Shown one piece after another: positions 17,928 through 44,140 of a stretch of DNA of 64,000 bases. The stretch covers positions 62,001 to 126,000 of the forward strand of contig WPAE01000021.1 in the NCBI GenBank assembly GCA_009773205.1, in the 5' to 3' direction. The first letter of the stretch is position 1. Each line of letters begins with the position of its first letter. The stretch is from Ignavibacteria bacterium (GTDB lineage: Bacteria > Bacteroidota > Ignavibacteria > Ignavibacteriales > Melioribacteraceae). A model generated the notes under the pieces. It was not told where the DNA came from and did no database searches. It saw only the letters and a program-made list of their open reading frames with translations. Both the position numbers and the translations under genes were made by a program.

Positions 17928-18611
17928 ATGATTGAAGCAGTAAATACAATATCGAATCAGAAATCATCAGTATCCGCAAATAAAAGCGCATTAGGCAAAG
18001 ATGATTTTTTGAGGTTAATGATTCAGCAGTTGAAAAATCAAGACCCGCTAAACCCAATGGATGGAACAGCGTATGCCTCGCAGCTTGCCGAGTTTTCTTC
18101 GCTCGAACAGTTATCAAATTTAAACTCAGCTATAAAAGATAGTTTGGCTGCAAACTTACAGTTAACGCAATCTGTAAATAACACAATGGTTGCTGCTTTA
18201 ATTGGCAAGGAAGCAAAGATAGATGGCAACTCGCTTCAAGTAACGGGGCAAAACAACATAACGCTTGGTTACACTCTGCCGCCAAATGCACTATCTGCCA
18301 AAATTAAAATCTACAACGAGAAAGGCGCTCTAATTAAAATTATGGAAGAGATTCCATTAAATACCGGAAGCAATAAACTTTCTTGGGACTGTACCGATAA
18401 TAATGGTGACAAATTACCAAATGGTAATTATACATTTGAAGTAGAAGCGAAGAATATGAGCGGCGGAAACTTGAAAGTGAACACATTCAAAATTGGATTG
18501 ATAGATGGCGTTCGTTTTACAGAAAACGGAACAGTGTTAAAAGTTGATGGCGCTGAATATTCTATAGCAGACATTTTGGAAATTCTTAATCCACAAAGCG
18601 GAGCTAAATGA
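17928..18611 (+). CDS. flgD: flagellar hook assembly protein FlgD
   Basis: 227 residues. The N-terminal FlgD motif LGKDDFLRLMIQQLKNQDPL with NPMDGTAYASQLAEFSSLEQ is complete, and the C-terminal half has the FlgD tudor/Ig-like part, KIKIYNEKGALIKIMEEI and GNYTFEVEAKNMSGGN. FlgD caps the growing hook. A ribosome site (AAGGA) precedes the ATG, and the stop overlaps the next gene. Confidence 0.96.
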   Translation: MIEAVNTISNQKSSVSANKSALGKDDFLRLMIQQLKNQDPLNPMDGTAYASQLAEFSSLEQLSNLNSAIKDSLAANLQLTQSVNNTMVAALIGKEAKIDGNSLQVTGQNNITLGYTLPPNALSAKIKIYNEKGALIKIMEEIPLNTGSNKLSWDCTDNNGDKLPNGNYTFEVEAKNMSGGNLKVNTFKIGLIDGVRFTENGTVLKVDGAEYSIADILEILNPQSGAK

Positions 18612-18991
18612 TGGCAGAGATAAATGGAATCTCCGTACCATTTATTCCTATTGTAGGAAATGAAGAGATTGCGGCGCGCAGAACCGGCAGAGAAGCTGTA
18701 AGCCAGTTCGATGCAATTTTCAAAGAAGAACTTGAGAAAATAAAATTCTCAAATCATGCAATGAAACGTCTTGAATCCAGAAATATCCACTTGAGCGATG
18801 TTGAATTGAATAAAATTCAAGATGCAGTTTCAAAAGCTGAATCTAAAGGCAGCAAAGACTCTTTAATAATGATGGACAAAACAGCATTCATAGTAAATAT
18901 TCCAAATAAAACGGTTGTTACAGCAATAGAAGTAGCAAACTCGGGCGAAAATGTTTTTACAAATATTGATAGTGTAGTGTTTGCAATATAA
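18608..18991 (+). CDS. TIGR02530-type flagellar protein
   Basis: 127 residues (126 if the second of two adjacent ATGs is used). The KFSNHAMKRLESRNIHLSDV followed by ELNKIQDAVSKAESKGSKDS and TVVTAIEVANSGENVFTNID match the small 'flagellar operon protein' family TIGR02530 that sits between flgD and flgE in many Gram-positive and some Gram-negative bacteria. Its role is not known; a hook-related chaperone or assembly role is a guess from position. Overlaps flgD by four bases. Confidence 0.82.
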   Translation: MMAEINGISVPFIPIVGNEEIAARRTGREAVSQFDAIFKEELEKIKFSNHAMKRLESRNIHLSDVELNKIQDAVSKAESKGSKDSLIMMDKTAFIVNIPNKTVVTAIEVANSGENVFTNIDSVVFAI

Positions 18992-19011
18992 TTAATTCAA
19001 AATAACAAAAC

Positions 19012-19066
19012 GGAGCGGGACCTTCTAAGGACGCTCCAGATCCGGCTGACCGACAGATGCTGGATC
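19012..19066 (+). promoter_or_regulatory. structured leader of flgE: two consecutive stem-loops
   Basis: In the 93-base gap before flgE, hairpin 1 has GGAGCG (19012-19017) pairing with CGCTCC (19032-19037) and an inner CCTT/AAGG stem. Hairpin 2 pairs GATCCGGC (19039-19046) with GCTGGATC (19059-19066), eight pairs with one G-U and a 12-base loop. The ribosome site AAGGAGGA and the GTG start follow directly. The gap is much more GC-rich than its surroundings. No U-run follows, so it is not a plain terminator, and it does not match the riboswitch consensus sequences I know. A weak sigma-54-like sequence (TAGTGTAGTGTTTGCA, 18970-18985, AG instead of GG) lies upstream. Confidence 0.55.
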
Positions 19067-19084
19067 AATCCAAGGAGGATCATC

Positions 19085-20752
19085 GTGGCACTTTTAACTT
19101 CTCTTTTTGCAGGCGTTTCCGGTTTACGTAATCATCAATCTATGATGGACGTTATCGGCAACAACATTTCTAATGTTAATACAATCGGCTTTAAAGGCTC
19201 GCGCGTTACATTTAGCGATGCATTTAATCAATTTGTAAAAGCCGGTACAAACCCAACAGATACATCTGGCGGTACAAACTCTTTTCAAATTGGTCTCGGC
19301 GCAAAAATAAATTCAATTGACCGTAATTGGAATCAAGGGACATTTGAAAGGACGGGAATAACCACAGATTTAGCTTTGCAAGGGCAGGCAATGTTCGTTT
19401 TAAAAAGTAACGGACAAAAATTCTATTCACGTGCCGGTGCTTTTGTCTTTGATGCTAATGGTAAATTAGTTAGCCCACAAAATGGAGCAATAGTTCAAGG
19501 CAAAGTTGCTAGCAAAGACGGTGTTATTCCTCCCGGTAACAATTTAGAGGATATTAAAATTGATTCTAACATGAAATTACCAGCAGTAGCAACTACAGAA
19601 ATTAACTGGGGTGGTAATTTAAAGAGCAATAGTGCTGTTACTAGAACTCAGGAGGTTCTACAAAGAGGCAACATTAATTCTACTGCGGTAGCCGTAGGTG
19701 GAAGTACGAGCGATAGTATAGTTAAAGTCTATAACATTTATGGAGAAAGCTTTGATTTTGTTTCGAACTATACAAAAACAGCTGCAAATACTTATACGTT
19801 CAATTGGAGAGTATTGGATAGCAAAGGCGCTCAATTAAGCAGTGGCAATATAGCAAACCTAGTTTTCGCAAATGATGGAACGGGAACATGGAAAATGAAC
19901 GCGGCATCAATTGCTTTATATAACGGAATAAATAACCGTGTAAATATTCCCTCTTCTGAAATTCAATTCACATTCGATTCTACTATTGTAACACAAAATG
20001 CAAGCACTAGCACTTTAAGCGCTTCTGCAGATAACAATAGAGTGCCAAATGTTGTAAGCGGATCAGTAACAGTTTATGATTCGTTAGGGTCAGCTCATCA
20101 AGTAACAATGAAATACACAAAGATTGGTGAAAATCAATGGACTTTCGTTGCTTCGGTACCGGGCACAAGCACTTACAATGGGCAGCCTGCTATTCAGAGG
20201 GGACAAATAACATTTAACCCAGATGGTACATTGGATCCTGCCAATATTTCACCCAATAATCCAGAGTTCTCATTTAAACCTACTGGTGCTAATGAAGTAA
20301 TAATGAAGCTGGCTTTTGGTTCTGGATTTAGCGGTGTTACTCAAACTTCTGCAAGTTCTGTAATAAGTGCACTTTCTCAAGATGGATCTCCTGCTTCAAC
20401 TTTATCCAACTTAAATATAGATCAGTATGGTAATATAGTGGGTATTTTCTCTAATGGTTCTTCTCAAACATTAGCTCAAATCATGTGTGCAACATTTACA
20501 AACTTAAATGGCTTAACTAGCTCTGGAGATAATATGTACGTTGCTTATGCAAATAGCGGCGAACCAATTGTAAAGAGTTTGGGAGAAGATTCTAACACTA
20601 CGGTTCAATCCGGTGCTTTAGAACAATCTAACGTAGATCTTTCTGAAGAGTTCACAAGAATGATAGTTTCGCAGAGAGGCTTCCAGGCTAACGCAAGAGT
20701 TATTACAACCGCAGATACATTACTGCAAGAAATCACAAACCTCATCAGATAA
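19085..20752 (+). CDS. flgE: flagellar hook protein FlgE
   Basis: 555 residues, longer than E. coli FlgE because of an enlarged middle domain. The start GTG at 19085 has the strongest ribosome site of the cluster (AAGGAGGA) and a structured leader. N-terminal rod/hook signature LFAGVSGLRNHQSMMDVIGN and NISNVNTIGFKGSRVTFSDA; C-terminal VDLSEEFTRMIVSQRGFQAN and ARVITTADTLLQEITNL. FlgE polymerises into the universal joint. A terminator follows at 20780, so this gene ends the first flagellar transcript. Confidence 0.96.
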   Translation: MALLTSLFAGVSGLRNHQSMMDVIGNNISNVNTIGFKGSRVTFSDAFNQFVKAGTNPTDTSGGTNSFQIGLGAKINSIDRNWNQGTFERTGITTDLALQGQAMFVLKSNGQKFYSRAGAFVFDANGKLVSPQNGAIVQGKVASKDGVIPPGNNLEDIKIDSNMKLPAVATTEINWGGNLKSNSAVTRTQEVLQRGNINSTAVAVGGSTSDSIVKVYNIYGESFDFVSNYTKTAANTYTFNWRVLDSKGAQLSSGNIANLVFANDGTGTWKMNAASIALYNGINNRVNIPSSEIQFTFDSTIVTQNASTSTLSASADNNRVPNVVSGSVTVYDSLGSAHQVTMKYTKIGENQWTFVASVPGTSTYNGQPAIQRGQITFNPDGTLDPANISPNNPEFSFKPTGANEVIMKLAFGSGFSGVTQTSASSVISALSQDGSPASTLSNLNIDQYGNIVGIFSNGSSQTLAQIMCATFTNLNGLTSSGDNMYVAYANSGEPIVKSLGEDSNTTVQSGALEQSNVDLSEEFTRMIVSQRGFQANARVITTADTLLQEITNLIR

Positions 20753-43906: not shown

Positions 43907-44140
43907 ATGTTAGTCTTATCAAGAAAAAATAACGAGGAGATAAAATTTGGTGCCGATATTACAATCAAGGTAATCAGTATCTCCGAAAATCAAGTAAAAA
44001 TAGGAATAGACGCGCCAAAACATATTCAAATACTGCGCGGCGAAGTTTACGAGAAAGTAAAAGAAAGCACTATCGAAGCAGTTAAAGCCAGCGAAGCGCC
44101 AAGCCTCGACTTGCACAAATACAAAGTCAAAAAAGTGTAA
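43907..44140 (+). CDS. csrA: carbon storage regulator CsrA
   Basis: The start MLVLSRKNNEEIKFGADITI is the normal CsrA N-terminus, so I place it at the ATG 43907. The 77-residue protein has the full five-strand core (VKIGIDAPKHIQILRGEVYE), including RGEVY at the RNA-binding edge, and a slightly extended C-terminal tail. CsrA represses flagellin mRNA translation; FliW antagonises it. Two bases before the next gene. Confidence 0.96.
   Translation: MLVLSRKNNEEIKFGADITIKVISISENQVKIGIDAPKHIQILRGEVYEKVKESTIEAVKASEAPSLDLHKYKVKKV

Follow-up and report, generated by a model that had tools for sequence, protein, structure and literature searches.

Our analysis of a 64,000-nucleotide stretch of an Ignavibacteria bacterium genome (hereafter the window) revealed that the hook protein gene flgE is preceded by a two-hairpin leader that is a real structured RNA family, and that the targets of this leader are axial, exported subunits, since its copies precede flgE, flgG, and flagellin. 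We further propose that the leader is cis-regulatory and that a factor dedicated to the flagellum, most likely the TIGR02530 protein, reads it to control translation of axial proteins, a reading to which we give about even chances. The leader lies between the TIGR02530 gene and flgE (Table 1), where it scores 74.6 bits with covariance model R2 and is the window's sole match. Neither the covariance model nor a DNA search found a second copy in the window or the whole genome, and because the leader is single-copy in the genome we ruled out a repeat or mobile element. An earlier note on this DNA had described the leader as unique within the gene cluster, which holds for this genome but not for others, where copies are also found before flgG and flagellin.

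Table 1. Features of the flgE leader and its surroundings, in window coordinates
Feature	Position	Strand	Basis
flgD, hook cap gene	17928..18611	+	Pfam FlgD 1e-22
TIGR02530 / PF12611 flagellar protein gene, candidate RNA reader	18608..18991	+	NCBIfam TIGR02530 3.7e-32, exceeds cut-off; motif co-occurrence
Whole two-hairpin leader RNA motif	19010..19067	+	covariance model R2, covariation
Hairpin 1, 26 nt: GC stem, invariant GG bulge, upper stem, variable tip loop	19012..19037	+	fold, covariation
Hairpin 1 bulged GG, model columns 9-10	19018..19019	+	G in 101/101 sequences
Hairpin 2, 28 nt: 8-bp covarying stem, 12-base loop UGACCGACAGAU	19039..19066	+	compensatory changes at 8/8 pairs
Small hairpin round Shine-Dalgarno, outside family-wide motif	19068..19080	+	fold; like pairs in relatives of the order
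Shine-Dalgarno AAGGAGG	19072..19078	+	sequence
flgE, hook protein, GTG start at 19085	19085..20752	+	Pfam FlgE_D2, NCBIfam FlgEFG

The two directly adjacent stem-loops described in the earlier note are present, and the folding energy of the 58-nt core is -25.8 kcal/mol compared with -15.2 +/- 2.7 in dinucleotide shuffles (z -3.9, 1/1000), which together with covariation in relatives substantiates its claim of a structured hook-gene leader; over a wider stretch of 151 bases z is only -1.2, diluted by the AT-rich flank. The gap is also GC-richer than its surroundings, as had been noted, with 60% GC in the core and mostly 30-45% in adjoining 90-base windows. In hairpin 1, the GG bulge adjoins a covarying pair (U-A, G-C, A-U, C-G) and the upper stem differs in length among sequences. 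The loop of hairpin 2 has the consensus N-GA-N-Y-GAC-N-GA-N, with all three GAs nearly invariant across 101 sequences. That these unpaired GG and GA bases are invariant while the stems vary freely implies that something recognises them. No T-run follows hairpin 2 (the next bases are AAUCCAAGGAGG), which rules out an intrinsic terminator, a point on which the earlier note was right. A third small hairpin, AUCC-AAGGA-GGAU, encloses the Shine-Dalgarno (SD) sequence in the fold, and many other members of the order likewise have short CC...GG pairs around the SD; because it is confined to the order, this hairpin was ruled out as a member of the family. Across the motif family we found neither a conserved spacing to the start codon (the distance is usually about 15-60 nt) nor a conserved SD-sequestering partner, so that the controlled step is not evident from sequence.

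Several lines of evidence support the structure. When 58 related genomes were searched at the DNA level, the leader lay directly 5' of flgE in most flagellated relatives; it is kept in three families of the order, even where hook protein identity is down to about 60%. In a MAFFT alignment of 41 leaders, compensatory changes are seen in 8/8 hairpin 2 pairs and 98.6% of cells are paired, with pairing dropping to about 40-44% when the partner strand is slid by one column. We then extended the family by iterated covariance models (R1-R3) to a final set of 101 diverse sequences, in which 97% of cells are paired, 14 of the 16 pairs show changes on both sides, and compensatory cells number 378 vs. 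95 +/- 13 in shuffles; the check proposed in the earlier note, covariation and conservation before flgE in relatives, thus came out in favour of the leader. Counts from alignments A2 and A3 lean towards the model, as both were fitted to it; A1 was not.

Two further tests are independent of model fitting of the second stem. When sequences were anchored on the loop, the six flanking pairs were 98% complementary, vs. 58% (maximum 63%) with arms swapped among sequences. A pattern scan of a species-genome collection, blind to both stem 2 and gene context, returned at least 120 matches; among the matches listed, stem 2 pairing is 96% in the 52 located before FlgE/F/G-type genes and 39%, about chance level, in the other 68. 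Compensatory changes, the loop-anchored test, and this context-blind scan together rule out DNA-level conservation without RNA structure.

The family does not correspond to any known RNA that we compared it with. Rfam 15 yielded no family match at the window or 8 other motif loci, with only chance-level snoRNA or sRNA matches at gathering and permissive thresholds, and neither the c-di-GMP-I/II models nor other Rfam riboswitch models matched the leader, consistent with the earlier note's view that it is not a c-di-GMP riboswitch. These missing matches also weigh against the idea of a small-molecule riboswitch, for instance one for a second messenger, which we regard as quite unlikely: a compact 5' leader structure with invariant unpaired bases in several phyla would be in keeping with it, but we see no expression platform (terminator or conserved anti-SD stem), the genes concerned are almost only flgE, flgG, and flagellin where metabolite switches usually govern several pathways, and the leader is strongly tied to a single protein family, TIGR02530. 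The flg-Rhizobiales RNA (RF01736) is likewise a candidate cis-regulatory RNA named for flagellar genes, but it is confined to Rhizobiales and gave no Rfam match at the window or the 8 motif loci. The Termite-flg RNA (RF01729), whose genes we take to be flagellar, shares with the hook leader its standing as a candidate structured RNA with a flagellar link, but is reported solely from termite gut, and we rejected it as an identity for the leader: its 106-position model misses all motif sites in 8 motif-bearing genomes at E up to 10. Its authors describe it as a candidate structured RNA that is probably cis-regulatory (Weinberg 2010, PMC2864571). We found no earlier description of the flgE leader motif in the open-licence literature, and neither this RNA family nor its targets nor its candidate partner appears to have been described so far.

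The range of the motif extends far beyond Ignavibacteriota, where the earlier note had proposed looking, and takes in Bacteroidota, Bacillota, Geobacter and its relatives, Calditrichota, Omnitrophota, and Planctomycetota. We detected it in 82/391 genomes of the class, 44/396 in other classes of the phylum, 11/267 genomes of Geobacter's phylum, and 207/320 sampled genomes of Bacillota (Brevibacillus's phylum), so that about two thirds of the sampled Bacillota genomes, and several other phyla besides, have a covariation-backed RNA at the hook gene. Clear matches with a FlgE/F/G gene behind them come from Ignavibacteria, Sporomusa, Brevibacillus, Paenibacillus, Clostridium caldaquaticum, Carboxydocella, Thermosyntropha, Geobacter, Phycisphaeraceae, Calditrichaeota, KSB1, and Omnitrophota. 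Among 50 Bacillota loci whose targets we assigned by reading, 34 precede flgE, 14 precede flgG—mostly just behind flgF—and 2 sit at a contig edge after TIGR02530. A second copy is found directly 5' of flagellin in two genomes of the window's family (L100, L101), and one locus (L156, G402:C1:929500-934500) holds a tandem pair of flgE paralogs whose leaders, one per gene, are nearly identical. In this pair, the second paralog does not directly follow TIGR02530. Matches without flagellar context (L119, L120, L102, L221, L376) were counted as false or uncertain; L102 (G018:C28:98511-98567, minus strand), a weaker match before a 661-aa apparently secreted protein, is the sole candidate target outside the flagellum.

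This set of targets bears on two other explanations. The leader might serve as an mRNA address that directs the mRNAs for hook, rod, and flagellin to the export apparatus, keeping synthesis and export in one place with no translational switching; every confirmed target is indeed exported by the flagellar type III apparatus, and polar localisation of a flagellin mRNA under CsrA-FliW control is reported for Campylobacter (PMC4894983), but no copy accompanies any other gene for an exported protein in the cluster (flgD or those elsewhere in the window), and we consider such a role unlikely. Similarly improbable, in our estimate, is a processing or stability element, that is, an RNase entry or protection site between TIGR02530 and flgE that yields longer-lived subunit mRNA. 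The leader would be well placed for this purpose, lying within an operon immediately ahead of a subunit needed in quantity, with its stable hairpins close to the 5' side of flgE and, in two genomes, of flagellin, but simple protection needs neither invariant loop bases nor a dedicated partner.

A candidate for such a partner is suggested by gene order, as a TIGR02530 gene precedes nearly every inspected flgE copy of the motif, and TIGR02530 also adjoins the motif in Geobacter, Calditrichota, KSB1, Omnitrophota, and Phycisphaera. Across the 320 Bacillota genomes, 206 carry both, 1 the motif only, 21 TIGR02530 only, and 92 neither (Fisher p 2.6e-58, a statistic that ignores shared ancestry). The true overlap is higher than counted, since in the five TIGR02530-only genomes that we read (of 21) hairpin 1 is recognisable in 5/5 and the hairpin 2 loop is intact in 2. 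The sole sampled Bacillota genome with the motif and without a TIGR02530 match, G974, may be an incomplete assembly. Of 80 TIGR02530-negative genomes, 39 have FlgE/F/G-family matches and just one of those 39 has the motif, indicating that the link is not with flagella as such, and TIGR02530 had no match in any of 14 control genomes, including the flagellates E. coli, B. subtilis, Caulobacter, and Thermotoga maritima. Part of the co-occurrence is accounted for by TIGR02530, leader, and flgE being linked in one operon; this linkage is broken only by the flgG and flagellin copies. In a Geobacter relative (L368), TIGR02530 and the leader are separated by an additional gene, and the leader has stayed with flgE; the inserted ORF (637-1458) is GxxExxY-like. 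In an Oscillospiraceae locus (L196, 5809-5866), the leader is flanked by TIGR02530 and a FlgE-like protein, both in strongly diverged form.

Invariant H, A, R, K, and T residues and a tail of sequence FTNIDSAV characterise the TIGR02530 protein. DUF4258 is weakly matched by 60/89 members (best E 0.0011), and a recent paper (PMC11980606) lists this family with the BECR-fold toxins of the RelE/ParE superfamily, whose families mostly cleave mRNA. In AlphaFold models (mean pLDDT 82-87), helices precede a sheet of four strands. PDB sequence and Foldseek fold searches with TIGR02530 gave no significant match, so a BECR relation draws on the weak DUF4258 profile matches and on topology; the non-significant fold matches, near full length, include small BECR domains such as the CdiA toxin, ParE, and colicin E5. 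On the strength of the weak DUF4258 match, the predicted fold, and these BECR-like matches, an RNA-binding role of TIGR02530 is plausible. A likeness of RelE/ParE type is unexpected for a flagellar operon protein.

Taken with the invariant unpaired bases, the co-occurrence suggests a protein partner (TIGR02530) rather than a nucleotide. In the mechanism that we propose, the leader would form a structured cis-regulatory domain of the hook mRNA whose two hairpins display the bulged GG and the GA-GA-GA loop; a flagellum-only factor would read both and set translation of flgE, and elsewhere of flgG and flagellin, according to assembly state. TIGR02530, or a complex containing it, would adjust initiation at these genes, acting on flgE within its own operon and in trans on other copies, presumably so that subunit synthesis is matched to export. 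We infer binding by TIGR02530, translation as the controlled step, the sign of control, and the link to export. A broader reading, which we offer tentatively and hold to be less probable than not by some distance, is that an ancient multi-phylum RNA family and a dedicated RNA-binding TIGR02530 protein, akin in fold to RelE-type mRNA toxins, couple rod, hook, and flagellin synthesis to export as an mRNA checkpoint independent of CsrA-FliW. To our knowledge, the matching of hook and rod subunit synthesis to export state is understood only in a few model species. The leader and TIGR02530 make it directly testable in common laboratory strains, and TIGR02530—one conserved, uncharacterised protein that accompanies the leader as a candidate reader—gains its first functional hypothesis.

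Structured leaders read by proteins are a known way of working. Ribosomal proteins, for instance, read leader RNAs of their own operons, and the hook leader resembles these in its conserved structure and in its tie to a single operon and to a protein encoded there: TIGR02530 is both encoded in the operon and co-occurring. The RNA, partner, and pathway are different, however, and TIGR02530 is only a candidate reader. In Caulobacter, flagellin mRNA is controlled by FlbT, likewise a protein specific to the flagellum that acts on the leader of a flagellar mRNA, although the Caulobacter control genome has no TIGR02530 match. A third parallel is CsrA-FliW control of flagellin mRNA in B. subtilis and Campylobacter (PMC6529632, PMC4894983), where a small RNA-binding protein controls a flagellar subunit mRNA post-transcriptionally; the hook leader differs in having no conserved GGA site pair, and CsrA is missing from eight motif genomes outside the class.

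It is very improbable that the leader is regulated by CsrA/FliW. A csrA gene is encoded on the window's contig and in flagellated relatives, and the SD and most hairpin 1 bulges contain GGA, but CsrA has no match in 8/8 near-complete motif genomes outside the class (G402, G406, G414, G455, G511, G517, G550, G592), the base after the bulge GG is A in 89/101 sequences and C or U in 12/101, and GGA is absent from hairpin 2. Because CsrA is absent from all eight of these genomes and GGA is not conserved, CsrA is refuted as the general factor. Within this order, CsrA could act on the SD hairpin. The csrA gene is found at about 43907-44065 of the window, on the same contig and in the same gene cluster as the flgE leader, and the flgE SD hairpin would suit a CsrA site in this order.
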